NCBI GenBank assembly: GCA_036245525.1
Contig: BTPG01000003.1
Coordinates: 192,368,164 to 192,432,163 of the forward strand
Direction of reading: 5' to 3'
Source: Semisulcospira habei
Taxonomy: Eukaryota > Mollusca > Gastropoda > Semisulcospiridae
DNA: 64,000 bases
Positions within the stretch are counted from its first letter, which is position 1; each line of letters begins with the position of its first letter. The notes beneath the pieces were generated by a model that was not told where the DNA came from, searched no databases, and was given only the letters and a program-made list of their open reading frames with translations. A program made the translations under genes and the position numbers. Below are positions 1-28,163 of this stretch, piece by piece.

Positions 1-1674
1 ACACATTTGGACCATGTTCGATCCAAATATGAGTGTTGAAGAATGTGTCGCGTGCGTTCATTTCATGCAGCTAGGTAAAGGAGGACGACCAGCAAAGGGT
101 GCACATGGGAAGAAACGACCGTTTCGATCTGTGGAATGTCACAGTGACACTCATAACACTGACACTAATAACAGCACTAATGAAGGTGATAGTGGTATAC
201 AAGTTTTCATTCCCCCGATGTCTACTCCCCGTAAAACGCCATGCAAAGTTGATGCTCAAACGTCGCCGTTACAAAGAGTGTGGACCCCATCTCCACCAGC
301 CAAGCGGATGCATGAAATAGCCATATCACCCATTGAAAAAAACGGGTGTCGATATAGCCACATCTCCACATATCAAACGACCCAGCCTTCAACCTGTCCA
401 GGAACTGCAGATGCCATTGACAAAGGAGGAAGAAAAATATCAGACAGCACTAAACCGCACAATGCTTAATGAATCAGCTGATGCCACAATCCGTTGCAAG
501 CCTGGAGGGCAGCCTTTGTATTTTATGCACATACCAAAACCAAGAAAACCAACAAGAGGGGCATCATCAGCCGTAATACGAAGAAGGTCAAAGGTATTAG
601 CCCGTGCTAGAGCAAATATGTCTGGCGGATCAGAAGTGGACGAAGCTGAACAAATAACTGACAAGTTAAGACGAGAAAGAAATTAAAAAAATGACTGCAA
701 TATTAGACAGAGCAGGCCATAGGCGATCCGTGTATGTCTGTAGAAAACAGGGTATTGCTCTGAGAACCAATCTAGTATTAAGCTGGTCCAAGTACAGAAC
801 ATACAAACGCTTCATGAGAAGTATTGGTGTCAAACTTGAAAGTGAAAGAAAGGAAAGACAGACCCAGAAAGAAGCGCTCTGTGGCACAGTGACCATTGAA
901 CAAAAGAATCTGACCTTTGAAAACAAAGTCACAAACAAGAAAGAAAGCCAGAAAACGCCTGTCGCCTACATAGAGGATCTCACACATTTTGTTCCTGAAC
1001 TGCTTGACAAGTTTGAAGCTGCAAATCTTCTTGAATGGCATGAACAAATACCAAATGATGAAATTTGGATAAAACTAGGAGGAGATCATGGCGGTAACAG
1101 TTATAAAACAATGCTTCAAGTTGCTAATCTCCAAAACCATAACTCTAAACACAATACGTTTTTGGTGTGTATGGCTAACTGTAAAGACAGTCATGAAAAT
1201 CTTCAAACAATTTTGCAGCCGTTTAAAGAGCAGGTGTCACTTCTCCAAACCATGAAATGGAAAGAAAAACAGATACGTGTATTTCTGTTTGGTGATTACG
1301 ATTTTCTCGTCAAACTCTTTGGTCTCTCAGGAGCACAAGGGGTCCACCCTTGTCTCTGGTGTACTGCTTCGAAAAGTCAGCTACAAAGAGCTCCACATGA
1401 GTGAGTACAAGTGAAACAGAGAACGCTTAACATCAAGCGGGATTATAGGCGATACATCCGTGCAGCAGGAGACAAAAAGAATGCCAAAGGTTACAACAAT
1501 GTTGTACATGAACCAATCTTTGATGTTGAGGTTTCGCAAACTGCACCACCATACCTCCATCTTCTTCTAGGTATAGTAGAAAAAAATCATTCCCTCCTAG
1601 AGCAAGAATGCCACGAACTCGATAAAGTCATTGCTGAAAGACTGGCCGAGGGAAAGGAGGCACATGATGGAAAC
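1..1674 (+). pseudogene. 5' part of RAG1-core-like DDE transposase gene, decayed
   Basis: The reading runs from before base 14 to 1674 in successive frames. It changes frame in the A run at 336-342, again in the A run at 685-691, and meets an in-frame TGA at 1402-1404. From 691 the protein holds a GGDHGGNS motif (Asp codon 1084-1086), then a segment DSHENLQTIL, then FGDYDFL (Asp codon 1294-1296), then a CLWC zinc pair (Cys codons 1351 and 1360). The order Asp, DSHExLxxIL, Asp, GL, CxxC matches the RNase-H-fold core of RAG1/Transib-type transposases, where vertebrate RAG1 has SDHETLTAIL and GYDEKL before its CxxC. The catalytic Glu should follow, and a candidate lies beyond the inserted retrotransposon, at 8529 or 8541. 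The N-terminal part is basic and has a Cys pair near residue 11 (ECVAC). The gene sits antisense in a HUWE1 intron. The RAG1-like reading is motif-level inference; Chapaev-like or another DDE superfamily is possible. Confidence 0.5.
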
Positions 1675-1893
1675 ATTCATTTTTCTTTAAAAGGTATTTT
1701 TTCGAAAAATACTTACCGATGACATGACTACCAGGAGTGTCTACTCCTTGCTCAATTCTAGCCTAAGAACCCGTTGTGTAAACACAACCCGGGAGGCACT
1801 CGGGGAACCCCCAGAGGGACCGAGAGTTGTCTCCCGCTCCTACCCACCAGCCCTATTCACCTGTGAACTCCAGTCACGAAATTAGGCTCACCA
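1675..1893. repeat. DIRS copy 1 left inverted terminal repeat
   Basis: Reverse complement of 7808-8005. The shared core includes the tract ending in CTTACCGATGACATGACTAC and the CCCGGGAGGCACTCGGGG segment near 1788-1805. The outermost bases (1675-1706) match the left half of the internal complementary region, which fixes this end. Confidence 0.9.
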
Positions 1894-1927
1894 GCGGCAA
1901 GCGGGGCAGGTGGGAGGGTCCTTCGAG

Positions 1928-2030
1928 TCATGTCATCGGTAAGTATTTTTCGAAAAAATACCTTTTAAAGAAAAATGAATTTGTTTCTTCAAAAACATTA
2001 CCGATGACATGACTACCAGGAGAATGCCGA
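1928..2030. repeat. DIRS copy 1 internal complementary region
   Basis: It contains the reverse complements of the left end (about 1928-1974) and the right end (about 1975-2030) fused back to back. In the DIRS family this region templates the circular junction. The junction falls at about AATGAA/TTTGTTTC (1973-1985). Confidence 0.88.
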
Positions 2031-2124
2031 ACAGGAGGAGGGTGCCGCACCCCCAGATGGTTTTCTCTAGGCTCATGGCCCCCTCCTCTCTTCCGACACT
2101 CTGCACTCCCTAATAGGTGCATAC

Positions 2125-3230
2125 CTACGGCGCCTGTGGCGCCGGGAGGGAGTGTTGTGCCGCCGTGACGTCCCCCACCAAGGCGAGGTTGTCTCGCTGC
2201 CCTGCCAGATCCCGTAGATAGAAGCGGGCGAAAGTAGATTCTGATCGCCAGCCCACCGCAGCCACGATGTCCTTGACAGCGCAGTTCCTGTCGAAGGCTA
2301 CGCTCGTGGCCATGGCCCGTACTTCGTGCGCCCGAATCTTTAGGCTCTTCGCTCCCTGAGGGGAGAGATCGACATATGCTGAGCGAATCACCCAGCGAAG
2401 CCAGGAAGAGACTGTCTGTGCTGTAATGTCGTTTCTTCCTGTTTTTAAAGGTAGGAAGAGGCGTGAGCGTCCCCTCCGGACGGCTCTGGTTCGTCGCAAG
2501 TACACTCTGAGGGCTCGTACGGGATCTTGTTGCCTGGTCTCTCTGGGGAAGTCTTTCCCGCGTAACGGTCGTAAGGTGATAACCTGTGGCGCCGTCAGTG
2601 GACCTAGTCTTGGCAATGAAGGCAGGGTCGGTCACCAGTTGGATCGAGTGATCAGCTCGAAATTGCAGGCATGTAGGCCGGACTGATAGAGCGTGTATCT
2701 CACTTACTAGTGCCGCGGTGGCGAGCGCCAGCAGGAAGCAGGTCTTCCGCGTCACATCCGCAAGACTGGCCAGCGGTAGTGGTTCGAAACGTGGTGAGTT
2801 TAGCCAGGTAAGAACCCATGGTAAATCCCAGCGGGGAAGAAGTGAGCGAGAGGCAGGCCTTTGTAGTCCGAAGTGTGACATAAGATCTGCCAGGTCCTTA
2901 CACGCGCCGGGGTCCGCGCGGCCGAGATGCCGGTAGGTGTCGGCAATCGAGAGATATCCCCGAATGGTAATAGGGGCCAGTCCTTGGTCTCCGAAGAGCC
3001 AGAGGAAGAAGCCCGCAAGTTGGGGGTTTGTCAGTTCGGTGGGGGAGAGACGACGGTCGCTGCACCAGGTACAGAGTACCCTCCATTTCCCCTCATAGAT
3101 ACGTCTAGTCGAGGGCTTGCGAGCTGTAGCGATCGCTTCCACTGCAGCATCCGAGAAACCTCTAGCTGAGAGGGCTTGCCGCACAACCTCCAGGCGTGTA
3201 GCAGTAAGCGTTCCGGACAGGGGTGGAACA
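2125..3230 (-). pseudogene. DIRS tyrosine recombinase
   Basis: The last domain of the element, used to integrate the circular DNA. An N-terminal SAM-like part (ATARKPSTRRIYEGKW, then WLFGDQGLAPITIRGYLS) is followed by the catalytic core. The core changes frame near 2620. HxxR is present as AHEVRA (about 2330), the Trp position as VGWRSE, and the nucleophile Tyr as FARFYLRD (about 2220). The first catalytic Arg is expected two residues before VSEIHAL, but the codon there is CTA (Leu) at about 2710, giving TAALVSEIH. With the frameshift this predicts a dead recombinase. The second copy (12680-13930) aligns to the same protein. Confidence 0.85.
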
Positions 3231-3239
3231 GCGCCTGAC

Positions 3240-5353
3240 GTGGCTGCTTGAGCATAGTGCGGGGCGTGGGGAGCGGTAGGGGAGGGTGCGTGGCGAGGCT
3301 GATCAGGTAGGTGGACCAGGAACGAGTCCAAGCGAACGGGGCGACCTGGAGCAGAATCGCATTGGTTCCTCGCAGCTTTAGGAGGACTTTGGGGACAAGG
3401 ACTGTCGGGGGAAAGGCGTACGCTATGAGTCCGTCCCAGGGAATGGATAAGGCGTCGACCGCCCAAGCCAGGGGATCCGGTACTGGGGAAACGAAGAGGG
3501 GAAGCTGGTGATTCCACCTCGTGGCGAACAGGTCCACCATCGGGGTCTCCCAGTGAGAGCAAATCATCCGGAAAATGTCCTGGCGTAGCGTCCATTCCGT
3601 GTGAATGAGCTGTCCTCGGCGAGAAAGGGAGTCCGCTAAAACGTTCAGGCGACCGGGAATATGGCGAGCGCTGAGAGTCAGATCGCGGTCCTCGCACCAT
3701 CGCCTCAATCGGAAGAGTAGCATGCATAGATCGGGTGAATGAGTTCCTCCCTGCTTCTGTATATACGCTACCACTGTCGAGTTGTCCGAAAGGACGAGAA
3801 GATGCTGGTGTCTGAGTTGCTCTTCCCAAACGATGATGGCCTGCCACACCGCTTGCAGTTCCAACCAGTTGCTGTGTTTGTCCGCGAACTCCGGAGGCCA
3901 GAGGCCGGACGTCGTGGTGAACTGAGGAAGCAGGTGGGCTCCCCAACCAGCCCGACTCGCGTCGACACACAGGGAGAGGTGCGGGGATGGAGAGGAAATG
4001 GGGACTCCCAGAGCCAACCAGGCTCTGTCGGTCCACCGTAAAAGGTGGGGGCGTACCAAAGGGGACACGGGGACGATTGTGGTCAAGTCGCCCGAGGAGG
4101 GACGCCAGATCAGTAGAAGATGAAGTTGTAGCGGTCGGGAGTAGAGACGCCCGAGGGGGATAAGATCCGCCGCTGCGTTGATCAGGCCCAGAAGCTGAAG
4201 CCAGACCCTGGCGGGGGCTGCCTGTTGCTGATCTACCAACGCGGCGAGAGCGGACAACTTCACAATCCGTTTCTCTGGCAAGAGTACCCTGTTGCGGTCC
4301 GTGACAAACTCCATGCCTAGATGGATGAAGTGGCGCGCCGGGGTGAAGTCCGACTTTCCGGTGTTGACCAGGAAACCCAACCGGTAAAGCAGCTGTAAAA
4401 GAGCGTCCCTGTCTGCCGCAAGCGCGGTCTCCACCTGATTTCTCAAGAGTAGGTCGTCGAGATAATTCGAGGTCGGACTTGACGACGACTGCCTCGCCTT
4501 GGCCACTACAGCATCCATGATGCGGGTGAAGGCCCAGGGGCTGAGGTTGAGACCGAACGCCGAACGGCAGGGCGCGAAACTGGTAAATCACTCCTTCGAA
4601 CGCGAAGCGCAGGTACTTCCTGGCAGAAGCGTGCGTGGGGACATGTAGGTAGGCGTCGGACAGATCTAAACTGACCGCGTAGTCCATGGGTTGAACTGCC
4701 GCACGAAGAGCCCTGGTCGTTTCCATCCGAAAGGAAGGGGCCGCGATGAAGGCGTTCAGCGCCGACAGATCTATGACTGGCCGCCACTTGCCGCCGGGCT
4801 TGGGCACCACAAACAGTCGGCTGTAAAAGGCGGGCGAGTCCGGACGCTGCACTATCTCTGTGGCCTCCTTCGAAAGGAGACCCGCGACTTCTCCTCGCAG
4901 AGCGGCGGCCTTGAGGGCATCGGACGGAACCTCCGTCCAAAGAGGAATGGAGTGCAAGGGCGGAGGAGAGCGGAACGAGATCCGTAATCCTCTGGTGACT
5001 ACGTCCAAAACCCAGGGCTCGTCTCGAAACAGCGAGCGCCACTCCTCGCTGAATCGTGCTAGCCTCCCGCCGACTGGAGCCCCGACGACGGTCGGCGGGG
5101 GCGGAATTGGGGACAAGTCAGGTGGCCCGCCCGCGCCCAGGGCGACGGGCGGGACGGGGCCAGGCGGGGGCAGGGGCGCTAGCTGGGCCAGGGCGACGGA
5201 AGGGCGGGCGACGGCGCGGCGCAGCTCGAGGTGGGGCAGACGGGTCCGAGGTGACACGTTTCCGGGCCCGCAAAGAGCGCCCCAGGGCCGTGCGGGCGGG
5301 AGGAAAGCGCTGCTTGACAGCTTTGCGAGGCCAACGGTCGGAGTTGGAGTCAT
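3240..5353 (-). pseudogene. DIRS reverse transcriptase, RNase H and methyltransferase-like region
   Basis: Two minus-strand frames meet near 4510-4540. The first (from 5353) holds the RT fingers and palm, with KPGGKWRPVIDL, a catalytic-Asp motif VSLDLSDAY and ALPFGVRS. The second (from 4518) continues with the YLDDLL catalytic motif. RNase H follows, with acidic residues in LCVDASRAGW, NWLELQAVW and VLSDNSTV and a late ARHIPGRLN...ADSLSR. A region VDLFATRWN...YAFPP comes next, at the position of the DNA N6-adenine methyltransferase-like domain known from DIRS elements. The polyprotein makes cDNA and removes template RNA. The frame change between the two palm motifs breaks this copy unless it is an assembly error. 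Confidence 0.88.
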
Positions 5354-7198
5354 TCACCGTCTGCCAAGTATCCCCGAAGAGCAGAGGCCCTCCCAGAGGG
5401 GCCCGACGTAGCTGAGTACTCAGGTCGACCGGCATTCCACTGCAAGCTTGTAGGACGGCGTCTCGTCGCATGAGGTCGCAGTTAGCCGCAGCCGCCATCG
5501 CGTTGACCGATGAGTGATGAGCAGCGCGGTTACCAGCCTCCGCCATGAGTAGTAGGTCTCCCAGGAGGGGAGACAACGCAGGTTGCCAAGCTTCCTCGAG
5601 ACGACGGATGAAAGCCTGAGTCAGCAAGTCCAAAAAACAGGAGCAGGCGAGCGTGTTCCGGACCAGCGACGCCATCCTATCCAGTCCCCGTGGGAAGGAC
5701 CGTACCAACATAGAAGCCCCTCCGGCTTGCATCAGAGCGGCGGGATCCACTGGAGGAAGCGGGCAGAGGAACGACTGCGAATGGCCGGCGTACCAGTCCT
5801 GTTGAAAAGCGATGTCCAGAGCGGAAGGCCATCTCCCGTCCGCGAAAAAGTCCGAGTTCCGAGTCTCCGAAAGCAGGTGAGACGAGAAGGCGTCCCGCAG
5901 ATCCAAAAAACTAGCCGGCTGTGGGAGGGACTTGAACCTCTTAACCGTCCTATCCGCGTCCACGAAGGCGGAAATCTTCCTCTTCACAGGCGGTGAAGTC
6001 GGACAAACATCCTCCGGTAAGGCGGCGGCGATGAGCTTGGCCGCTCCGTCCAGCGCCAGCCGCGTGTCCATCCGGGAAGAAGAAACCTGTCTGACGGAAG
6101 CTGACACACTGGAGGCCGAAGAGGGAGAAGCTGAAGAACGGCTTAGACCTCCAAGTAACCAGTCCGAAGCATCCTCCGGCACCAAACTGAGGTTGTCGAA
6201 GTCCCGCTGTCCAGAAACTGGCGACCGAAGAGGGCGACGAGGGCTCCGAGGCCGGGAATCCCGTCGGAGAACCGCAGCGGACGAAGACTCCCTCCGCAGC
6301 GGAGAGCGGTAGTCTGAACGATGCGGTGAGGACCTCCTGCGTGCCGAAGGCGGATCCCGACGAGGAGAACGGCTGCGACGAGAGGGAACGGAGCGGTGAG
6401 TACGAGGAGGGGGGGAAGTGGCCGGTCGCTGGGAAGAGGGACGGGACGAACGGGAGTCCAACCGAGAGGGGGAACGCGAAGAAGGTGAAAACCGTCTGCG
6501 GCGAGGGGAGTCCCGGTGCGACGAGCGATGAGGCGAGAAGTTCCTCCTACGATCGTGCGAAGGAGAGCGGAAACGTCGAGCAGAACCCCTGTATCTACGT
6601 TCTTCACCACCAGGAGGCTCCGGACGAGTGCAAGTATGTCTCTCTGAACCAGGCTCTTGGGAGATGGCGGGTTACTGGCCGGCCAGGGGACCTCCAGCGG
6701 GATCCCGGCGGCTTCCTCAGAGACGAGTGGGGAACGACGGTGGAGGAGGGACGCCACGAGCGTCCCACCAAACCAGGCTCTTGGGAGAGGCGGGTTCTTT
6801 CCACCAAATGTGTCCGGGCGCGCTCTCGAACGGAGGCGGTCTTGACGGTCGAACTCCCACTCCGTGCACTAGTCCCTTGATTACTCAGTGGCGTTATCTG
6901 CGTCGGATCCCGTTGGTCTCGCACGTCCGGTGCCGGGGGCACAGCGGAAGGCGTCTCGGAAATCTTCAAGGTACCCGCGAGGGTAGGAGGCTCCCTCCTA
7001 TAAAAGTTCCAGAGATTAGGCCACCGCAGTTCCGGCCATGAAGCACAGACGTCGCACGTATGGTCGGACGCACACCCAGCGCAGGAGACAGACTGCATGT
7101 TTATCCGACGGCCACTGGAAGCCTCCGCATTTTGTGCATGTCATCAGTAGGCCACTGCAACACACAAAACATGAAGGCACTCGGCGAGTGTCCACCAA
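5118..7198 (-). pseudogene. DIRS gag-like ORF
   Basis: The first ORF of the element, read leftwards. Its N-terminal part (about 7198-6604) has a cluster of Cys and His spread over two frames: CTKC in one frame and CAGC...CDVC in the other. This suggests a treble-clef-like zinc motif broken by a frameshift near 7100. From 6461 an open frame of 447 codons begins with an Arg/Ser dipeptide-rich segment. It continues through a helical, Leu-rich region (SWxx-free, with motifs such as LIAAALPEDV and ALDIAFQQDW) and ends in a Pro/Arg-rich basic tail. This is the composition expected of a nucleic-acid-binding Gag, and its 3' end overlaps the pol frame by about 230 bases. Similar Gag remnants occur in the second DIRS copy at 16875-17500. 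Function is inferred from position and composition. Confidence 0.65.
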
Positions 7199-7807
7199 TC
7201 ACCCCGTTAAGCTTTAGGCCCCCAAGCTACTGTGGTGTTATGCACCCAATTAACCAACGTACGGTCACCTGCCATCAACATTTAATTAAAACCACGGCGG
7301 AGGGAAAACAAACCCTGCCGGGACAGGTGAGCATCCAAGCCTTCGTCATAACGCGGGGCGTCTAAACCGAAAACCGAAAAACGTTAGGTATGGCCTAGAT
7401 ACAGTAACGTGACTCACCGCTCGCATCTGGCAATGGCACGAAAAGCCCGCCAAAACCGGCGCCAAACATTCTTCAGCTAATCAGGCAACCAAACAGAGGT
7501 TAAAAAACCCCAAACGAGGGAGAAGCGACGCAAAAAGCAAGCTGCTCGTGCCTGTGCCCCGCCCGGGCAACCAGCCGAGGGCCCTCTAACTACCTTACCT
7601 GTCAGTCGGAGTGGTACGAGAAGGAGAAAGTTCCATGACACCCACAGCCCGACCGGCAAAGCCAGAGAGGGAACCCTTGAACAAGACCGAAGCTGCAGTC
7701 GACCAACGTCGCACGCGTAGAATCCCAGGCCGGCGAAGACGAAGCAAGCAAGGCAGACCGAACCGGTCGAAAAAAACTTCTAAGTCCAGAGACAACACGT
7801 CTGAACG

Positions 7808-8005
7808 CGTGAGCCTAAGAAGTGTGACTGGAGTTCACAGGTGAATAGGGCTGGTGGGTAGGAGCGGGAGACAACTCTCGGTCCCTCTGGGGGTTCCCCG
7901 AGTGCCTCCCGGGTTGTGTTTACACAACGGGTTCTTAGGCTAGAATTGAGCAAGGAGTAGACACTCCTGGTAGTCATGTCATCGGTAATGTTTTTGAAGA
8001 AACAA
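7808..8005. repeat. DIRS copy 1 right inverted terminal repeat
   Basis: Inverted partner of 1675-1893. It ends at GAAGAAACAAA (to about 8005), which matches the right half of the internal complementary region at 1981-2000. The boundary is uncertain by 1-3 bases. Confidence 0.88.
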
Positions 8006-8705
8006 ACACCTTTTGAAAAAAAGATTTCAGAAGTAAAAGTCATCAAAGAACTTGAAAAAAGAAAACAGCTGACCAAGGGTATTGCAGTGTTCAGCGACAA
8101 GAGACACAATGAGAGTGTGAAGCATTTTGATGAACGATGTGAGCAGAAGATGCAGCGGGTAGCAGAATTCGAGGACAAAATAGAAGCTCTGAGAGAAGAG
8201 ACAAAGTTGCCATTTCTGTGCGGACCTGTCACTTCATACCATGAAGCTGACAGATGATCCTAAACTTCATGCAGCAGCGCATTACATATCCTTAAAGTTC
8301 CGAATTCTGAATGACCTGTACTCACAAGTCCATACTAATGTTTCTCACAAAATGCCGGTGAAGAGCAGAAATGAATCAATACAAGACATCAATGACAAGA
8401 TTGCAAACTACATGCGTTTTTTTCGAAGTACTTTTCCAGCCAGTAGCATCATTCCGAAACAACATATCCTGGAATGTCACTGCGTTGACTTTATGACCAA
8501 GTGGGGATTTGGTTTGGCGCTTCATGGTGAGCAGGGAGGTGAAGAGAGTCACGCTACCATTAACATTTTAAAGAGTAGGACATTTGGCTTGCAAACAGAG
8601 GAGGAAAAACTCAGACTGCTCATGACCGAGCACATGACACTCGTGTCACTGGTCCTCCATGCCGTCATTCCTCCAGTAGTAAAACAGAAAAAAATTATCG
8701 TATAA
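8006..8705 (+). pseudogene. 3' part of the RAG1-core-like transposase gene
   Basis: This continues the gene interrupted at 1674. Reading resumes in frame at ACA (8006) with a Lys/Glu-rich helical stretch (KVIKELEKRKQ). There is one frame change near 8240, and the reading then runs to the stop at 8703-8705. The final part holds PKQHILE, a Trp, and HGEQGGEESH (Glu codons 8529 and 8541), which fits the third acidic residue of a DDE triad. RAG1 has SEGNESGN at the equivalent place. Joining the two halves keeps the frame across the insertion, which supports their being one gene. The frame change and the upstream stop make this copy inactive. No downstream terminal inverted repeat was recognised, so the element's ends are not defined. 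Confidence 0.5.
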
Positions 8706-9273
8706 CGCTGTTTAGCCGTCGTTGGTCTTGTGTATCTGTGAACAGAAACTCAGTATTGTTATTATGTCTAGTGTGTCAGCAAATGTGCTGAACCGCAAGG
8801 TATATTTAAAAACACTGTTGAATACTGTGACGGACTAATCGGATTTTAGTACACGGAGGGCATTAGCAGTCTGTGGAGTACCGGGACTACGGGCGAGAAA
8901 TGCCAGAACGCGACCTGTCAGTGACCTCATTAACCACCCTCCTGCTTCCGCCCCCCAGCACGTAGCGAAAATCCGGTAAGTGATACTTACTGTAGGCATG
9001 CTGACCCTTATGCATGCAAGTGTGTTTCGTTGGGAAAAGTTACGTCTTCATGTTATAGCTGTGGGAACTTTGTCAATTTCACAACAAACACCGACATCGT
9101 ACATCAACAAATTCTCGTTCTCTTTATTTTCACCATAATCTGCTACACAAGTGTAAGTCGTAATGTTGTCATGTTTGGTATCGGTGTGTAGATAAGAATT
9201 TCAACTTTTGAACGATGCTACTTTCACAACAGTCACTTTAGGCTGAGATGTGTTATGAATACAAACGTGTAGG
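8706..9273. other. HUWE1 intron sequence, no gene seen
   Basis: No exon, terminal repeat or long open frame was recognised. The stretch may include the unmarked 3' end of the RAG1-core-like element. Confidence 0.4.
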
Positions 9274-9275
9274 TA

Positions 9276-11283
9276 CAGTGGAGTCCAGTTAACACGAACT
9301 CGCTTTACACGAATTTCCGGTTAACACGAACCGATTTTGCATTCCCAGCCGACGGCCTTCTTATTCTGTAATAAAATTTCACTGATAACACGAAATGCTT
9401 AACACGAAATTTCGCTTTACACGAAGCTTGTTTCGGTTCCCAACCAGGGCAATTTCACTATTATTCACCTGTTTAACATGAACACGGATTCCATTCACCG
9501 AAAACCAATTCATGTTTCGCTCTTGCGCTGTAGTACACGACAGATCAGAGCAAACTCTAGTCTGTGATTGGCTGAATAGCCTTCGGTTGTTGTAATCCGT
9601 CTTCTCATTGGCTAGCATTTCTGAACTGTATTCATGTTGTTTGCATCATTCGTGTACCAACACAACCCTTTTACCGATGCAGGATTGTACTTCAGCCTGT
9701 GCGTTGCTTTTACCTGATGAAATGTAACTTACTATGGATTTTACCTGATGGATTTTACATTAAATACGCGAGCTGAACACGTTTCCGCGTTTTCCTAGCG
9801 AGCTGAAGGTATGCATATAACGTACGATAATGTGCCCACTGTTAACCTCGTACTCATTCACGCACACATCTCTTACACTTTCTCCTTGAGGGCCGCGATC
9901 AATTTTGAGGCCATATTGGTTAACACGAAATACGTTTAAGGGGAGACATGGTAGTCAAATAATGAATTTTTTTGTTTCAGAAACTGTTGGTTGTTTGTTG
10001 TCATTTTATGATGTAAAATAACTGCTGGATTATATATAGACTTTGAAAAATGTCAAAAAAAATATTTTTGTGACTTTAATGCATCAAAAACTGGGAAAAA
10101 CCTTGCAAAATTAGCTAATTTCAAAATGTTCTTGTGTCTGAACTAATGCTTATATTCTCTCACTTCTTTTTGTTTTTTAAATCTATTTATGTGCTAAACA
10201 GACCTGTGCATGGAAATTGCATTCAGTACATCAGTAATTTTATAATGAGCACTAGAAATAATCATTATAAATTGCAGTCATCAAGAGACCGAAAACAGCA
10301 ATTCACATGGTCACCAAACACAAACTAATACACTAAACTCATATTCCATGCACAGAAATATTGCAACACATGTTACAAATATCATATCCAAATATGAAAT
10401 GGATCGGTCAAGCCATTCAAAAGATACAACCTTTTATTTGGTCGAAAAATCACATTTTGAGAAAACGGTCCCCAAAGATTGGACAAGCAAAACGGAGTAC
10501 TGTGCCATAACAAACACCTATGGGATAAAAAAACAAAACAAAAAAACAACAAAAAAATTGAATAGCCACATATAGAAACATATTTCTCATGAGAAAATGA
10601 AAAGCAAAAGGTTTCTCAGTCTTGGATATATGCACACGTTGAAAATGCGCGATCTGAATGAGCGATTCTCGTATTTTGATCGAGTTGTACGCCATGCGTA
10701 ATGGTGCATTGTGGGACAGTCGGAAAGACCCGAAGCCGTTCGGAGCCTGGTCGGAAAAACCCGAAGTCATCCAGAACACTCGGCGCGCTCTGCTCATTGG
10801 TCGGTTTCCGAAAATAGTATTATCTCATTAGCATAACGTTCGTATAAGGAAATCTCCGGTCGTTCGTGACGTCGGTTTTGCGCCAATAGCTATTTATAAA
10901 GCCTTTGTAACCTTTAGCTGGTTGGTGAATGGGAAAGTAGAGACGGAACCGGTTCGAATGAACCCAAACATGGCGGCATTCGTCGCTCGCAAAGCGGTGT
11001 TGTCAGGGTCCAAACATTGGATGTTTTCGAGCAAAAGACGTCGCAAATGCTTGAAACATTGAGCAGGTGCTTCACTTTATTTATTTTTTTACAGTAAATA
11101 AAAGGTATTTTGTGATATTTTATGGTTGTGGCCGGGTTCTAGGGGGTTCAAACAACCCAAAAATCCAGTCAACCCAAAAACACTTCGGACACCAAAATTG
11201 ACGTTTTTGCGGTACCGTGTCTCCCCTTAAACACGAAGTGATTTTCCGTGTCCCCAGAAATTCGTGTTAAGCGGACTCCACTG
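9276..11283. mobile_element. Pogo/Tigger-like non-autonomous element, interrupted
   Basis: The ends are inverted repeats beginning CAGTGGAGTCC (9276) and ending GGACTCCACTG (11283), flanked by TA on both sides (9274-9275 and 11284-11285). A CAGTG-type terminus and TA target duplication fit the pogo/Tigger branch of Tc1-mariner. The interior repeats short AACACGAA units and has no transposase. Without the 1.3 kb element nested at 9936-11230 its length is about 0.7 kb. Confidence 0.8.
9940..11226. mobile_element. TTAA-flanked 1287 bp element, copy A
   Basis: Bounded by TTAA (9936-9939 and 11227-11230) and by terminal inverted repeats GGGGAGACATGGTA and TACCGTGTCTCCCC, with one mismatch. Exactly the same length as the copy at 18198-19484; by eye they differ at about five places, all transitions. 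TTAA duplication is typical of piggyBac and Kolobok transposons. Three short open frames (64, 75 and, on the minus strand, 115 codons) occur in both copies, but none resembles a transposase. Probably non-autonomous and recently mobile. Confidence 0.85.
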
Positions 11284-11479
11284 TAGTTGTTATAGCGCAG
11301 AGCGCCGGACACGCTGTGTACTGCTCAGTTGCAAGTGCGATATAAATAGAATGAGCGAGCGAGAGAGGAATTTGACCTCGCCACGCCTTATCTCTCTGGC
11401 AGCCTGAAGCGAACTAAGTGCTACGCGCAAGAACTGGCTGGTAAAGCCGTGGGACGGAAGAAAGATTGTGGTGCATTAC

Positions 11480-11640
11480 CTAAAGACATAAAGTAGGTTG
11501 AGGACAGCAAGGACAACGGTCATGTTACAGGAGGCGAGTAATGTGGCCAGGTGCTCCATGGAACTGTATAGGTGCCGTGAAAAACTGTGCTCGATCAGCA
11601 ATGCTGTGAAGCGCAACACCTCCAGCAACAGCTGCTTTAA
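11480..11640 (-). CDS. huwe1: HUWE1 exon 4 of the coding sequence (53 codons + 2 nt)
   Basis: The acceptor ttgctacag precedes 11640. It encodes [18 protein letters not shown], then [17 protein letters not shown], then [12 protein letters not shown], and ends AG|GTAATG at 11480. The split Ser codon matches the vertebrate YVFS. This is the most conserved HUWE1 piece in the window. Confidence 0.95.
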
Positions 11641-14600
11641 CTGTAGCAACAGAAAAAAATCACCAAGTAATAACAGCAACTTTATTATCAACTATGGCAA
11701 CAGAAACACCACCAACAACTATCAGCAATGTTGTAAATCCAACAAAACAAAAAAAAGAATTTTTTTTAACTGATGCAACAAATTTGCTACACTGTTTTAA
11801 CCCTCATATGCATGTAGCCAACCTTACAGTTTACAGTACCAGTGGCTGAATACACACAGGGATTAACTCATTCAGTCCCAACGCCTTAACCAGGACATTA
11901 ACGGTTACTAACTAGCTTCAGGAACACAAGTCAAAGGCAAATTCCTCTCCTGTAAATGCAGGGTTTTTTATAATGGGGGGGGGGGGGGGGGGGGGGGGGG
12001 GGTGTGTGAGTGGGGGGTTTCAAGTAAAAGAAATTCAACAAGCCTGCTCATCCAAAGCCTACCTGTTCATTTCCTGGAAGGTCACAAGCCATGGTCCATG
12101 ACTTTTCTGTTCCATGCGCACATGCGCTCTCCAACACCCCATCAAACAGGTCGAGCACATCTGCCCAGTGGTATAGCTCACACTGTCGCAGTAAAAAAGA
12201 AAAATGAATTTTTCATTAAAATGCATTTTTTTAAAAAATACTTACCGATGGTATTACATATAGGAAAAAGCCCTTGCTAGCATAAATTTTAGCCAAATTT
12301 TGGTTGTGTCCATATAAGGGAGTGTTGGCAGGAGTGGGGCGCCATAGACCATGCCAAACCCGAATAGCCTCCCCTTACTCCCATCCGGTACAAGATTACC
12401 CAGCATACACCAGTTTAGTTTCTTAGCGAACTGGCGGCAAGCGGGGCAGGTGGGAGGGACCTTCGAGTAATACCATCGGTAAGTATTTTTCAAAAAAATG
12501 CATTTTAATGAAAAATTCATTTGTTTTCTCAAAACACATTACCGATGGTATTACATATAGGAAGAATCCCAAAGAGGAGGTGGGTGCCGCTATAGCGCCC
12601 CTACTGCCAACAACACTGCCCACAGAACCGCCCTCCTGCAGCAAACTCCCGATAATTTTAGCTAAGATACCTGCGGCGCCTAGGGCGCTGGGAGGGAGTG
12701 TTGCGCTGCTGCGATGTCTCCCACCAGTAAGAGGTTCTGCCGCTGGGTGGAGCGGTCCCTCAGGTAGAAGCGGGCGAAAGTGGTCTCCGCTCGCCATCTC
12801 ACAGCCGCCACAATGTCTTTGACTGCACAGGTGCTGTCGAAGCGGGACTTGCGGCCATGACTCTGACCTCGTGCGCCTCGATGTTCAACATGTGGCTGCA
12901 TCAGGTCGAGGTCCTGGAAGGCCGGGCGGATCACTCCCCGGAACCAGGAGGAGCAGGTCTGGGCTGAGATGGCACGTCTACCTGGGGACAAAGGGAGAAA
13001 CAGGTGGGTGCGTCCTCTGCGCAAGCTTGGTCCGGCGCAGGCACACCCGTAAGGCTCTCATCGGTTCCTATGTCTGGTCTACCGAGTGGAGTCTGTAAGG
13101 GCGGAAAGTCATCAACTGTAGGGCAGCCAAGGCGACCACGACTTGGCCCTGAAGGCTGGTACCGTAAGCAGTTGCACGGCGCCTTCTGTCTGTAACTGCC
13201 AGCAATCTGTGTGTGACAACAGCACGTACATTCACTGACCCTGGAAGAGGTGGCTAGGACCCACGTAAGGGTCTCACCGGGTTCTGAAGTCTGTTCTCCC
13301 AGGTGGAGTCCGTATACGCGCAGGGCGAAACATCTGTCGCCGTCAGGGAGGCCGCGTCTCGTCCAGGAAGATGTTTCAGGTAGCAGTAGCATGAAGCCGG
13401 TCGTCTGGCACTGCAAGCAATCTGGGTGTGTGGACAGCGAGCGTAGTTTACTGACCCTGGAGGTTGAGTCAAGAACCGCCAGGAAGCACCCTTCCTAGAT
13501 ACATCCGTCAAGCGCGTCAGGTGCAGGGTTCCAACTGACGGGGTTGAGACCACGTAAGCCCCCATGGTAGATCACTCTTGGCCCACGTGAAGCAGTGCTG
13601 GGCATTCCACACCGAAGAGAGCCTCCGAAATGCGAGGTCTTGCAGCTACCCGGGTCTGATGAGCATAGTCGCCTGTAGGTGACGGCGGTCATGGTAGATA
13701 GTCCTGAAAGGTAAAAGGAGACCGTCCCTGGGCGTTGAATAGCCAGAGGAAGCACTCCGTCAGCTGGGGCTTCGTGAAGTCCGGAGAGAAAGAAGGCCGT
13801 CATCAGTCCCGTCACACAGCGCTCGTCGTCTTCCCTCGCAACTCGTCTGGTTGAGGGTCTGCGGGTTGTCTCGGTAGTATCCACGGCCGCCCTAGGGAAG
13901 CCTCTGTGGTAGAGGGCTTGCTGCACAATCTCCGGGTGTGGCGGAGGACTTCAGGGCCCGGCTGTTATGGCGGCTGTCCCGGTTGCTAGAGCATCATGCA
14001 AGTAGTGGAGAGCTGCAGAGGGGGGCATGTGGTGACGAGCTGACCCCGACTGGTGAAGAAACAAAGCGCCCCGAGCCAGGAATTGCCCACCTACCTCCGC
14101 AAGCCTGTAACAAAGGGAATGTCGGACAACCAAGCGTGTAACTCAGCATTCAATCTCGATGGCGAGCAGTGAAGTTGGAAGATCCGGCCACAGCGACGCC
14201 TCCCCGCGCCGCTGGCCTCAAGCGCACTAGCATCTCCCATAAGTACGCCCTTTTTCTCCAAGCAGAAAAGGTGTCAGGCTGAACGGCGATCCACTAGCAT
14301 GTCCTCAGTCCTAAGAGAACTGAAGAAGGTACTGAGTGTCGCTCCTACTCTGGCTTGCTCTCGTCCTACTGGGAGTCCCACTCGAACAGGACGACCACGC
14401 ACTCCATCCTCGACGGAATCCACGCGAAGAACCACGTAGTACCTGTCCCGTAGCATAGGCAGCCTAATCGACGGCGAAGTGGGCAGGACCCCAGCCTACC
14501 GCCCGGCTTGCCAACTGGTTACGACGTCGAACCTCGAGTTGTCCCAAAGTCCTGGAGACGCACCGCTGCTCTCAGGCCCTTGTCTAGCATCTGCCAAGAC

Positions 14601-17600: not shown

Positions 17601-20600
17601 GTCCCATGAACTCGAACGGCGACGAAGATACTTCGGAGCGCCTGTCTTCCCATTGCGTAGCGACCCAATGGACCTGGGACGTCGTCTCCTGTTCCTCTCG
17701 TACCCCTGGTCTCTGTGTAGTGAGCACATGCTTCCGAAGTCAGGCGAACTGTAAGACCGTGACCGTTTCCGGGAACAGGGTCCCATCGTGGGGTCGTCTC
17801 TCTGCACTGCATCTAGAGCGGGCTCTCGTCTGCACAGTCGGGGCGAGGGCATGGCCCAACATCACTGAGCCGGGATCTTGTCGTGTGAAGTGCAGCGGTC
17901 CTGTAGCACCTGCGGTCGCCGCAAGCAGTAGTAAGTGCCGGTGTAACCCGCGACGGGAGATGGCGCCAACGCATGTATAGCCCGGGCGAGGGCGCCCAAA
18001 ATAATCATAATCATAATAATTAATTAATCAATGCTTATTGAAAGAGTTTTATTTGATTGTAATTGCCCTTTAAGCGATAAATCAAGTTATTTGAATTAAA
18101 TTGAGCTATGAGAGTCAGAATACCACTCTGTTTCTCATCTCCATTTTCTCAAAACTGAAGTAATCGGTTCAGTGGTTTCAGGATTATAGCCTTTTAAGGG
18201 GAGACATGGTAGTCAAATAATGAATTTTTTTGTTTCAGAAACTGTTGGTTGTTTGTTGTCATTTTATGATGTAAAATAACTGCTGGATTATATATAGACT
18301 TTGAAAAATGTCAAAAAAAATATTTTTGTGACTTTAATGCATCAAAAACTGGGAAAAACCTTGCAAAATTAGCTAATTTCAAAATGTTCTTGTGTCTGAA
18401 CTAATGCTTATATTCTCTCACTTCTTTTTGTTTTTTAAATCTATTTATGTGCTAAATAGACCTGTGCATGGAAATTGCATTCAGTACATCAGTAATTTTA
18501 TAATGAGCACTAGAAATAATCATTATAAATTGCAGTCATCAAGAGACCGAAAACAGCAATTCACATGGTCACCAAACACAAACTAATACACTAAACTCAT
18601 ATTCCATGCACAGAAATATTGCAACACATGTTACAAATATCATATCCAAATATGAAATGGATCGGTCAAGCCATTCAAAAGATACAACCTTTTATTTGGT
18701 CGAAAAATCACATTTTGAGAAAACGGTCCCCAAAGATTGGACAAGCAAAACGGAGTACTGTGCCATAACAAACACCTATGGGATAAAAAAACAAAACAAA
18801 AAAACAACAAAAAAATTGAATAGCCACATATAGAAACATATTTCTCATGAGAAAATGAAAAGCAAAAGGTTTCTCAGTTTTGGATATATGCACACGTTGA
18901 AAATGCGCGATCTGAATGAGCGATTCTCGTATTTTGATCGAGTTGTACGCCATGCGTAATGGTGCATTGTGGGACAGTCGGAAAGACCCGAAGCCGTTCG
19001 GAGCCTGGTCGGAAAAACCCGAAGTCATCCAGAACACTCGGCGCGCTCTGCTCATTGGTTGGTTTCCGAAAATAGTATTATCTCATTAGCATAACGTTCG
19101 TATAAGGAAATCTCCGGTCGTTCGTGACGTCGGTTTTGCGCCAATAGCTATTTATAGAGCCTTTGTAACCTTTAGCTGGTTGGTGAATGGGAAAGTAGAG
19201 ACGGAACCGGTTTGAATGAACCCAAACATGGCGGCATTCGTCGCTCGCAAAGCGGTGTTGTCAGGGTCCAAACATTGGATGTTTTCGAGCAAAAGACGTC
19301 GCAAATGCTTGAAACATTGAGCAGGTGCTTCACTTTATTTATTTTTTTACAGTAAATAAAAGGTATTTTGTGATATTTTATGGTTGTGGCCGGGTTCTAG
19401 GGGGTTCAAACAACCCAAAAATCCAGTCAACCCAAAAACACTTCGGACACCAAAATTGACGTTTTTGCGGTACCGTGTCTCCCCTTAAGAGGTGTTGCGC
19501 CCCAGCGGTCTGGCGAAACCGCTGCGCAGCTGGGAATGCAACCTTTTAACACCTGTGGCAAAAGGGTTAAAACGCCTACCTGGAACGAAAAAGGCCCTAC
19601 GTGCCGTACCACGACAAACTCACATACCCAAATCTTGCATGCTACCGTGCAACATGCTCTCACATAGACACTCGACACTGACCTGAGCCCGAGAAGCCGA
19701 ACAGTCACTTCTGCATGTCCTGTCTATAATTTGTCGCCTGGCCCGAGACTGGAAGCGTCGTAGGTTCGGTTGCCGACGCCAGCCCGGCAGAAATAATTGG
19801 TCTTAGCCATCCCAAGAAGGGGGGTTGCCAGCTACCACTCCGGCTGGCAAGAGCTCAAGATATGGTATCTTGGTCGCCACGGTCAGGGAACCTTAGGAGG
19901 ACCCTCCGCGAAATTGCGACTACAAGCTTACTGGACCGGGACGTCTAGGTCACTGCCGCTGACTTATGTCCCACCTTGTTACTCTGGCCGGCTCTGTCAA
20001 TCTGTCGCTTGTCCACTCTGGCCTGCGGACGGACAGTGGAGCGGTCATCTCTCAAGGCCGGGTCCCGTGAGTGTATGGGTCTCGCTGTCATGTCTATGAT
20101 CCGCCGACTGAGCCAGGCCTGGGAGCGTCGTATGGTCGGAAGCCGACGCCAGTCCGGCGGAAAATCATTGGTTTAGCCACTAAAGCAGAGTTTGTCAGCT
20201 ATCCCTCCCGCTGACAAGAGCCCAGGAAAAGGTATCTTGTGCTTTACTGGTCCGGGACCACAAAGTCACCGACTTGGGTCCCACCTTGTTACTCTTGGGC
20301 GTCTCTGTCCGGCGATCTCTGATAGCCGTCGTACTCTCTCTGTGGGCCAACAAGCCACTGCTTCTGACTTGGGTCCCACCTTGTTACTCTTGTGCGTCTC
20401 TGTCAGGTGTTCTCTGATAGGCGCCGTACGCTCTCTGTGGGACAACGAAGCCACTCCTTCCGACTTGGGTCCCACCTTGTTACTCTTGGTCGCCTCTGTT
20501 AGGCGATCTCTGGTAGGCATCATACGCTCTCTGTGGGACAACAAAGCCCCTCCTTCTGCCTTGGGTCCCACCTTGTTACTCTTGGGCGTCCCTGTCAGGC

Positions 20601-24420: not shown

Positions 24421-26780
24421 TTGATTAAACATTCAAGGTTTGCAGTTTTGATATTAGGATCCAAACGAAACACTTTTGCACGAAACAAATCGATGCCGGC
24501 ATGAGAGGGCAAGACACGAAAAATTGCACTGCTACTGCTAGAGATGGTCTTTTCGTAATTCATCGTCATTTTGCTTTTATTGCATTATTTTTGTGGGTGA
24601 TAAAATCGATTAGTGCACCCGATATTGTCATCTTGCCTTCTGCTTGAGTTTTGCAGTTAGTTTATTTACGGTGCTGACTTGCCAATCGTTCATGATAAGT
24701 TCTGCTTCTGGAATAAGTCAACATGAGTTGTATCATTTTAATTTTTGTCAGTATTCATGAGCATGCACATTTATTTTGTCCGGTGTTACTGATTGCATAT
24801 TCCAGACTTTGACAATATTGATATAATGGAATGTTTGGCATCCTGTCTCGGAAGACAATGGAGTATATGCGCTTGCTGGGTCAGTCACTGGAGTGGCCTC
24901 TCCAGGGCGCAAGCCTGGGATGCATGGTCAGAACTTTGACTCAACCAATCTGAATCTGTTCTTTTTTAATGTGGGGTATTGGCTACCAGGATTTCTGACA
25001 GCTTTCTTTGTGTGTTTTTGCATACCTGTCTGTCCTTTTGTTACACCACGTCAGATGGGCACTTTCTTATTTTGATCAGTAGAGTAACTGTCACAGTGTA
25101 AGTCCTTGTCATCCAGCATTGGATGTTGAGTACACTTATACATAAGCAGAGACTGAGAGCTAAGTCTGTTGAGAAAGGATTGTCTACCTTTAGATGGTTT
25201 GTGTTTTATAACAATATCAGTTTGGAGAAGAAATTAATAGCATCATTGTTGATAATGAAAAGTTGACGTAAATGAATGGTAGTATCGCTAATTTTAAGGA
25301 TAACTCTTAGTAAAAGTTGGATCAGATATGAGCAATTCTCAAAAGGTCAGACAGGAATTGAGGAAACATTACACATAGCTGAAATTTCATCTCTCATTTT
25401 GAAAACTGATTTTGATTTGATTGCTTGTATCTGACACTACTGAAAAAGTATCCAACAATTGTTTTATTTTTTTGTAACAATTTTAGGGAGTTAGAGAAGA
25501 ATTTGTATTGTGCTAAGCATGGTGTCATGCTACAGTCACGGTGGTGAACATTACAAATGGCCGGAATCATGATGCCTATTTTTTCCCCTGCTAAATAATT
25601 GTTTTGGACTCATTTTAATGGATAAAGCTTGTTTTCTGCAAAACAAATGCATTAATAATCATGTGGTTATGTTGCTTTTGTGATTATGTACCTTTAACCG
25701 TATCATCTGTTGTACTCAACTTTTGGACTACTATGACCATAGAGGTAACACACGACACTGTAACTTTCAAATTCAAATTATAAATTAGAAAAGAATCATC
25801 ATCAACCAAACACTTTGCCTTGTGCACATACTTTCATCTCTACGCAACACACAAATAAGATTTACTTCAAGTTGTCATTCGTTTCCATGCTGAAGCTTCC
25901 TTATCAGAAGTACCTATTCTGCATAATGTTTTTCTATGCCGAAATTCTTGTGGGTTTTTTTTTTAATTTAAAATCATCTCACAAACAAACGACTAAAAAA
26001 AATGACACGCAACGCGGTATAAAAATTCTTTATTCCATTCAGATTCGGCTGCAAAAAAAAAACAACAACATATTATTCTACATTTAGTGAGTCAATACAA
26101 ACTTATTTCTGAACAGGGTTCCAGACAAGTGACCTTTTGAGATTTGCTCATTTATGTATCAGTTCTTGTTCAGAGGTCCATACCACATTTTTATATTACC
26201 GGTATTTTGCTAACTTCAAATATAAAAGTGTACAAACTTCAAATATAAAAGCAAAGTGAAAGGTTGGTCGCCTAGCATTTTATTATATAAATTTCACTCA
26301 AGATTGAGTAGGAGGTCAGGCTGAGAGAAAACTGATACTTTCTGTGAACAGCAGGCCCGTTGCAGAGAGGGCAGTTGTGACCTTGATGGCACTTTCACTG
26401 TTCTTAGTATCAGTGGGCACAACCTGTCAAACTGGAAGTTGGTTAACTGGCTTGTGCATGCAGCCACTGGTACTGTAATCAGGGAAACAACCTGTCGGTG
26501 TAGTTTCTTTTAGTTGATGATACTGATGATTAGGAAGTTGGTTATCCTTTTGGCTGGCAGCAGGACATTTGTCAAAGTGATTCCTGCAGGAATTATCTTG
26601 AGTATAAGAGCTACGATAGCTGAAGAGATTACCCTTGTTTGCTTGCATCCAATGGTGTGCATGCATCCAATGGTACTGTAAACGGTACCAGTGAATGCAT
26701 ACGCAAGGGGGTTATAGGAAAATGTGTTGCACCCATCCACATGAAACATACTAATACTTGTTCGTGTTTTTATTTTACAG
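24421..26780. other. AT-rich intergenic or first-intron DNA upstream of the zinc-finger gene
   Basis: No exon was recognised. Two members of the TGCATGCAGCC palindrome family lie at about 26448-26480 and 26659-26717. A 5' exon of the zinc-finger gene is expected here, because its coding exon starts with a splice acceptor. Confidence 0.4.
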
Positions 26781-26807
26781 CTTGTGGCAGGATTGTGTTG
26801 GGCAGAA

Positions 26808-28163
26808 ATGGAGGACCGTGAGGATGGCTGTTTGGCTCTGGGTGCAGATATCAACCACGAGCTCCTGGCCAGCATCCTGGTGGAGGAACCACTCACGTCC
26901 CCTCCCCCATCCTCTCTCTTTGAGGAACTAACTTCCAGCCTCATGGACTCCTCCAACATCGATCTGTACCTTGAGTGCGAAGATGACAAGAGCTATGCTG
27001 TTCCCCAGCAGTCTGACGAACTGTCTCTTCACTCATTGTTGACATCCAACGTCAACATGCGTATCTCCTTCCCAACACCCCCATCAGATGTTGGATCAGA
27101 CGAGGGCAGTCTGTCATGCAAATACTGCAAGTGTAACTTTCTCAGCCAACATCATTTAGCTATGCACACTAGGACTGCGCATGGCGAGACAAACAACCTA
27201 AATGGACGGATACGAAAGTCTTCAAGTTTGGAGAGGGACTTTACAAATGGAGAGCAGAGTGATGATGAAGAAGAGGAAGAACAAGAACCTTCTCCTGCCA
27301 CTCAAAGTCCAGCGTTAGCAGCAGCTTTGGTTCCGTCTTTATTCTCAGCAGGTGTTGTGAAAAAAACAAAGACATTAAAACTCAAACGGAAGGCTGTGAA
27401 AGAGAAGATGAGAAATGGCAAGCATGCTCCTTTGATAAAGAAGTCAAAGTCGGATTCTGAAATAAAACCACCGGAGCCAGCTCTGCCCCCAGGCACAGAA
27501 GGCGGGAAAGTGAAATCAGAAACGCAATACGAGTCAACAAATGAGACAATAGATGTGGAGCATACCTCACCAGCCAGCTCTCCTAGCAGCATACAGATGA
27601 ATCTGGATCAGGCTTTAAAGAAGCACGTGGCAGGTGTCCCTTTTACGTGTACTATCTGCATGAAGACCTACGTGTCCAAGTATGCCCTCAAACGCCACAT
27701 AGCTACTCATAGCGATGAGCGCCCTTTCATATGCTCTTTTCCGGACTGCAAGGGGGCCTTCAAGCTTAAGTCACGTCTGACTGACCACATCCGCTATGTA
27801 CACAAGCGCAAGACGGCCAGAACATCTGCCCGCAGTAAATCTCTGCCAGCGTCCGCCACTCAGTCGCGGCAGGATGATGAGCAGTCAGTAGCAGACACCA
27901 TATCATCTCAAGGCAGCAATGGTTATGACAGTCATCCTCCTGAAACTGGAGGCAAGGGTTTGCCTGGTGGCAAGCCTGCACCCAAAAAAGTGAAGTGCAA
28001 CTTTCCTAACTGTAGTCGGGAATTTCGTGATGCATACAACATGCGGGCACACATGTATCTACACACAGGTCATCTTCCCCTCAAATGTCCCCAATGTGAC
28101 TATCGGTGTGCACAGAAAGCAGCACTGGACTGGCACCTGACTCACACCCATCCCTCATCATGA
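26808..28163 (+). CDS. C2H2 zinc-finger protein with five fingers
   Basis: An open frame of 451 codons from ATG 26808 (context GCAGAAATGG) to TGA 28161. A strong acceptor (tattttacag) at 26780 precedes it. The frame is open back to that acceptor, so extra N-terminal residues from an upstream exon are possible. Fingers: C104/C107/H120/H125; C281/C284/H297/H301; C309/C314/H327/H332; C397/C402/H415/H419; C427/C430/H443 with H446 or H448. Fingers 2-3 and 4-5 form linked pairs (HSDERPF and HTGHLPL linkers). The N-terminus is acidic and hydrophobic (EELTSSLMDSS, DLYLECEDD), like an activation region. A DDEEEEEQE run and a Lys-rich stretch (TKTLKLKRKAVKEK) lie between fingers 1 and 2. Probably a nuclear DNA-binding regulator. 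Family not recognised. Confidence 0.9.
   Translation: MEDREDGCLALGADINHELLASILVEEPLTSPPPSSLFEELTSSLMDSSNIDLYLECEDDKSYAVPQQSDELSLHSLLTSNVNMRISFPTPPSDVGSDEGSLSCKYCKCNFLSQHHLAMHTRTAHGETNNLNGRIRKSSSLERDFTNGEQSDDEEEEEQEPSPATQSPALAAALVPSLFSAGVVKKTKTLKLKRKAVKEKMRNGKHAPLIKKSKSDSEIKPPEPALPPGTEGGKVKSETQYESTNETIDVEHTSPASSPSSIQMNLDQALKKHVAGVPFTCTICMKTYVSKYALKRHIATHSDERPFICSFPDCKGAFKLKSRLTDHIRYVHKRKTARTSARSKSLPASATQSRQDDEQSVADTISSQGSNGYDSHPPETGGKGLPGGKPAPKKVKCNFPNCSREFRDAYNMRAHMYLHTGHLPLKCPQCDYRCAQKAALDWHLTHTHPSS

Follow-up and report, generated by a model that had tools for sequence, protein, structure and literature searches.

We analyzed a 64,000-nucleotide stretch of the genome of the gastropod Semisulcospira habei (contig BTPG01000003.1, forward-strand positions 192,368,164 to 192,432,163; the window), which carries an interrupted transposase gene beside sequence encoding HUWE1. 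The gene belongs to the Chapaev family, and we are confident that it is the transposase of an autonomous cut-and-paste transposon of about 4.25 kb with one frame of about 940 amino acids (aa), whose short and long ends would pair; the copy in the window is, with the same confidence, fairly young but broken. An initial annotation had placed a RAG1-core-like gene within a HUWE1 intron at 1 to 8705. That interval is too narrow for the element, whose left end lies 1004 bp outside the window (L011 position 6996) and whose right end is at 11,451.

All parts of the window copy lie on the plus strand and are, in long stretches, 96.6 to 97.9% identical to an intact reference copy, L012. Positions 1 to 1683 (L012 1003-2686) encode the last part of the Chapa domain (beginning at nt 2), a linker, a region resembling the nonamer-binding domain (NBD) of RAG1, and the start of the catalytic core. 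Here lie the first putative catalytic Asp (codon 1084-1086, in GGDHGG at 1078-1095), the KDSHENLQTIL motif (1183-1215), the second Asp (codon 1294-1296, in FGDYDFL at 1288-1308) and CLWC (1351-1362), the first half of a presumed C2H2 zinc site. The coiled-coil region follows at 7999 to 8235 (L012 2673-2907), and the C-terminal coding part, with its stop at 8703-8705, and the inner 3' inverted repeat at 8236 to 9275 (L012 3042-4088). This last part contains H-x4-H (8463-8480), the second half of the presumed zinc site, and the two invariant Glu residues of GEQGGE (8529-8543; GEQGGEESH within 8520-8552), of which 8541-8543 is the likelier catalytic one. All motifs of the initial annotation were thus found, in the order it gave. 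The outer end of the 3' inverted repeat (11,283-11,451) ends in GTG and carries on the minus strand a subterminal TTAGTT (11,412-11,417) at nt 35, counted inwards from the 3' (long) end; the target duplication GGAC (11,452-11,455) adjoins it, with its partner left of the window at L011 6992-6995.

The reported interruption of the gene is real. The reading frame shifts near 340 and again near 675 and meets a stop at 1402-1404; it changes once more at 8235/8236, where 134 bp that include the conserved QAYH..NHC segment are deleted; and a retrotransposon occupies about 1684 to 7998, with junctions ambiguous by about 14 nt. The retrotransposon, which has 201-nt inverted terminal repeats (92%) and a reverse transcriptase on the minus strand, is presumably DIRS-like given this anatomy; no tyrosine recombinase was detected in it. 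Stretches within about 12,430 to 14,025 are 65 to 68% similar to it. The 3' inverted repeat is split by a TA-flanked insertion (9276-11,282, ends CAGTGGAGTCC/GGACTCCACTG), which we assume to be perhaps a nonautonomous element of Tc1/mariner or pogo type. Within it (9935-11,230) and again at 18,193 to 19,488 stands a 1.3-kb repeat, 99.6% identical between its two occurrences, with inverted ends (GGGGAGACA..) and TTAA flanks. We take this repeat to be possibly nonautonomous and of piggyBac or Kolobok type, and perhaps it moved recently.

Minus-strand protein matches, obtained with a HUWE1 probe sequence, support the HUWE1 context. They comprise an exon at 11,482 to 11,619 (match 11,619-11,482, E = 8e-17), a match at 12,185-12,021 (E = 2e-10) whose last part extends past the exon, one at 22,873-22,775 (E = 3e-6), and a weak one at 23,486-23,445 (E = 0.8) consistent with the protein start; the following part of the probe had no convincing match within the window. 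Judged by its sequence, the apparent splice donor of the HUWE1 exon lies about 24 bp from the Chapaev target duplication. Elsewhere, 26,745 to 28,157 (plus strand) is a 471-aa open frame with C2H2 zinc fingers.

Intact copies and their target sites

The host genome (1.98 Gb in 507 contigs) was searched with a window fragment, and among the 150 matches scored from 897 candidates, 18 fall within stop-free open frames of at least 943 aa. Nineteen other copies were taken, selected for long frames, and both ends were located in 18. The reference copy is 4254 bp long, with a single 940-aa frame at 689-3511 and arms of about 500 nt. In a comparison that left out two longer copies, subfamily A (eight copies) showed 98.75 to 99.74% mutual identity and subfamily B (eight copies) 99.23 to 99.91%, with 93.3% between A and B.

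The 18 A/B copies all have CAC..GTG ends, as do all 11 copies of three other families in the same genome (C, D, and E; three, four, and four copies with both ends). Such ends are a Chapaev hallmark (PMC4079192). Terminal repeats, which the initial annotation had suggested looking for around intact copies, were found as inverted arms of about 500 nt in the A/B family; the 5-bp target duplications that it named with them were seen in 0 of 18 A/B copies. Instead, an exact 4-bp duplication flanks 17 of the 18 (the exception is L028), while 0 of 306 crossed-flank pairs agree. Exact duplications also flank 3/3 C, 2/4 D, and 4/4 E copies, for a total of 26 of 29, and in one further D copy the duplication differs by one base. 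Their length agrees with the 3 to 4 bp that characterize Chapaev. When the flanks of L026, L027, L029, and L030 were joined, they matched window repeats across the junction (best matches 89-98%). The 4-bp length and varied sequence set these duplications apart from the 3-bp TWA duplication that defines the Chapaev3 subgroup (PMC4079192).

The transposase itself was assigned by Pfam, piece 670-1401 matching DUF1280 (PF06918) at E = 4.9e-19 and with a score of 69.2 bits, where 25 is the cut-off. In its transposase family, Chapa domain, CAC..GTG ends, and 4-bp duplication, the element agrees with Chapaev as described (Repbase; Pfam DUF1280), and it differs in the long inverted repeats of A/B and in an asymmetric spacing of TTAGTT of which the literature searched holds no description. 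Its location within a conserved gene would also suit a transposon gene co-opted by the host, but we give that idea almost no credence, as the gene is broken by frameshifts, a stop, a deletion, and insertions, and has many near-identical copies bearing target duplications.

Relationship to RAG1

The window fragment, used as a query, matched 16 relatives, with Elysia among their named sources, and a profile search yielded 122 (120 of them listed), with Littorina, Nucella, Haliotis, Plakobranchus, Hydra, and Branchiostoma among the named sources. Across 62 aligned relatives, with gaps set aside, the two Asp residues are conserved in 61/61 and 62/62, the two Cys in 62/62 and 60/62, and the two Glu in 55/55 and 55/56, so that the motifs are conserved and not there by chance. 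A domain scan of 35 of the 130 relatives, with matches counted at E up to 1, found DUF1280 in 35/35, zf-AD in 11, "RAG1 importin binding" in 8 (best 2.6e-7), and a RING finger in 4. A RING finger lies ahead of the core in relatives P0079, P0081, P0097, and P0111, the first two of which also have a Cys-rich N terminus, as RAG1 does.

The similarity to RAG1 has two parts. At the N terminus, the 62-relative profile matched the N-terminal region of mouse RAG1 (E = 7.1e-7 with 21wb and 1.6e-6 with 6oem). The 6oem alignment extends to RAG1 residue 491 and sets RAG1 GGRP opposite GGQP of the family, in a stretch that we take to be the NBD. The Chapa domain, whose last part the window keeps, is the part of the relatives that matches the RAG1 N-terminal profile, and in the intact copy the N terminus is Cys-rich. 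In the core, a predicted-structure match to RAG1 spans about 460 residues, much better than the matches to P element and ISCth4, and the second Asp is spaced from CxxC as in RAG1. Predicted structure and spacing, compared at the level of the fold and not residue by residue, therefore point to a core of RAG1 type that has the D, D, E residues as well as a C2H2 zinc site. In relative P0019, CxxC and H-x4-H are separated at residues of about 605 to 712 by a long helical stretch that resembles a coiled coil and is matched by varied coiled-coil proteins; RAG1 probably lacks this insert. In the window copy, the retrotransposon sits in this stretch.

Convergence of an unrelated DDE family upon this motif order, which the initial annotation had allowed, could be argued from the structural-alignment identity to RAG1, which is only about 15%, and from a weak core profile comparison. 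We regard convergence as very improbable, as the size of the core match, the shared Asp-CxxC spacing, and an N-terminal domain homologous to that of RAG1 all speak against it. Equally improbable, in our judgment, is the opposite proposal, that the element belongs to the RAG-like (RAGL/ProtoRAG) or true Transib transposons and is close kin of vertebrate RAG1. The RAG1-type core and N-terminal domain would fit it, and protostome RAGL elements are known (PMC7204232). However, the duplications are 4 and not 5 bp; a RAG1-core query matched 42 proteins, none within P0001-P0130 (best 8000 candidates by shared words scored); the Pfam RAG1 core family is absent among the Pfam matches listed (25 of 64 families in the scan of 35 relatives); and L012, at 4254 bp with one gene only, has no room for a RAG2-like partner gene.

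The RAG1-related reading thus stands in part: the core is of predicted RAG1/Transib type, but the family is Chapaev, which was already known because earlier papers cover it. DUF1280 had been equated with Chapaev transposases and placed in one clade with RAG1 (PMC3985635), and a CMCT grouping is marked by C(2)C and H(3-4)H motifs (PMC12730594). Chapaev has been described as only distant kin of other Transibs. RAGL, ProtoRAG, and AanRAGL share the core fold and bipartite asymmetric ends with the window family and differ from it in having two genes, 5-bp duplications, and other spacer differences, while Transib differs in its 5-bp duplications and in having no N-terminal domain (PMC7204232, PMC4411706). 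N-RAG-TP of Aplysia likewise puts RAG1 N-terminal-like sequence in a molluscan transposon, but by its description it consists solely of such sequence (PMC8355894); our guess is that it is a Chapaev relative.

Asymmetric ends and a possible 12/23-like pairing

Read inwards, L012 has 7 nt between CACGCCTTTACCA and CACTTAGTTCG at its 5' end and 18 nt between CACGGCTTTACCA and CACTTAGTTCG at its 3' end, an offset of 11 bp. At the short end, TTAGTT starts at nt 24 in 4/4 families; at the long end, it starts at nt 35 in A/B and E and at nt 34 in C and D. In A/B the 3' end is the long one; in C, D, and E it is the 5' end. TAGTT stands at the expected places of both ends in 27 of the 29 copies (L015 and L024 each lack one), and the positions in the window copy are 24 and 35. 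Within nt 8-60, TTAGTT is the sole 6-mer common to eight representative ends; 0 of 20,000 shuffles gave even a shared 5-mer, and random draws gave four offsets all of 10-11 in 24 of 2,000,000 trials.

The asymmetry might be a frozen accident, a single old indel near one end that was inherited without function. One event could be common to four families of one genome, and the inner sequence of the A/B inverted arms is in any case shared by the two ends. Protein identity among A/B, C (translated without its first part), D, and E is only 43.9 to 48.5%, however, and C, D, and E have no long arms and almost no arm similarity, yet the short-end motif keeps its place in every family, while the long end changes sides. 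Furthermore, in seven A and eight B copies, the outer end segments are 93.5 to 95% alike across subfamilies but 45% between the two ends, whereas the inner arms are about 94% alike within a subfamily and 85 to 89% across A/B; the inner arms seem to have been homogenized while distinct outer ends were kept. We therefore consider a functionless accident unlikely.

We favor instead a pairing of unequal ends. The transposase core would most likely bind the CACGSC terminus and the NBD-like region the subterminal TTAGTT, one short end would pair with one long end, by analogy with the 12 and 23 recombination signal sequences (RSSs) of RAG, and Asp, Asp, and Glu of the RNase H core would catalyze. With heptamer 7 and spacer 12 or 23, the nonamer starts at nt 20 in the 12RSS and at nt 31 in the 23RSS (PMC8289069), so that the two systems have the same one-turn offset at nearly equal distance (20/31 versus 24/34-35). 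ProtoRAG spacers are 27/31 (PMC8289069) and AanRAGL spacers 4/13, and Subgroup I Transibs are all asymmetric and Subgroup II mixed (PMC9435367). Vertebrate RAG1 further resembles the Chapaev transposase in its CxxC and H-x4-H, N-terminal zinc domain, CAC end and, by prediction, core fold; the window family differs in the RING (none found), the absence of RAG2, the 4-bp instead of 5-bp stagger, and the long coiled-coil-like insert.

Several observations weigh against this account. The profile comparison of the core with RAG1 is weak (hhalign E = 0.058, probability 0.9%; E = 0.072 in another run), so the core link depends on predicted structure. TTAGTT differs from the RSS nonamer, its long-end distance varies by 1 nt between families, and family D has the exact duplication in only 2/4 copies. 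The copies used for the end analysis were picked by long open frames, and since four families from one genome share descent, the shuffle test speaks to conservation and not to function.

RAGL and part of the Transib elements are known to have asymmetric ends. No report of such asymmetry in Chapaev was found among the best-ranked hits of the literature searched or in passages of PMC4079192 and PMC4411706, with Repbase Reports and most subscription papers outside its scope. We tentatively propose, as an idea that may well prove wrong, that a 12/23-like rule predates RAG: the ancestor of Chapaev, Transib, and RAG would have paired short and long ends, differing by one helical turn, through a RAG1-type NBD, and vertebrate 12/23 recombination would have kept this design. 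Finding the one-turn asymmetry in four Chapaev families that have diverged would suggest that it is common to the superfamily as a whole, and the near-identical copies whose frames are intact provide an enzyme for studying short-long pairing without RAG2.
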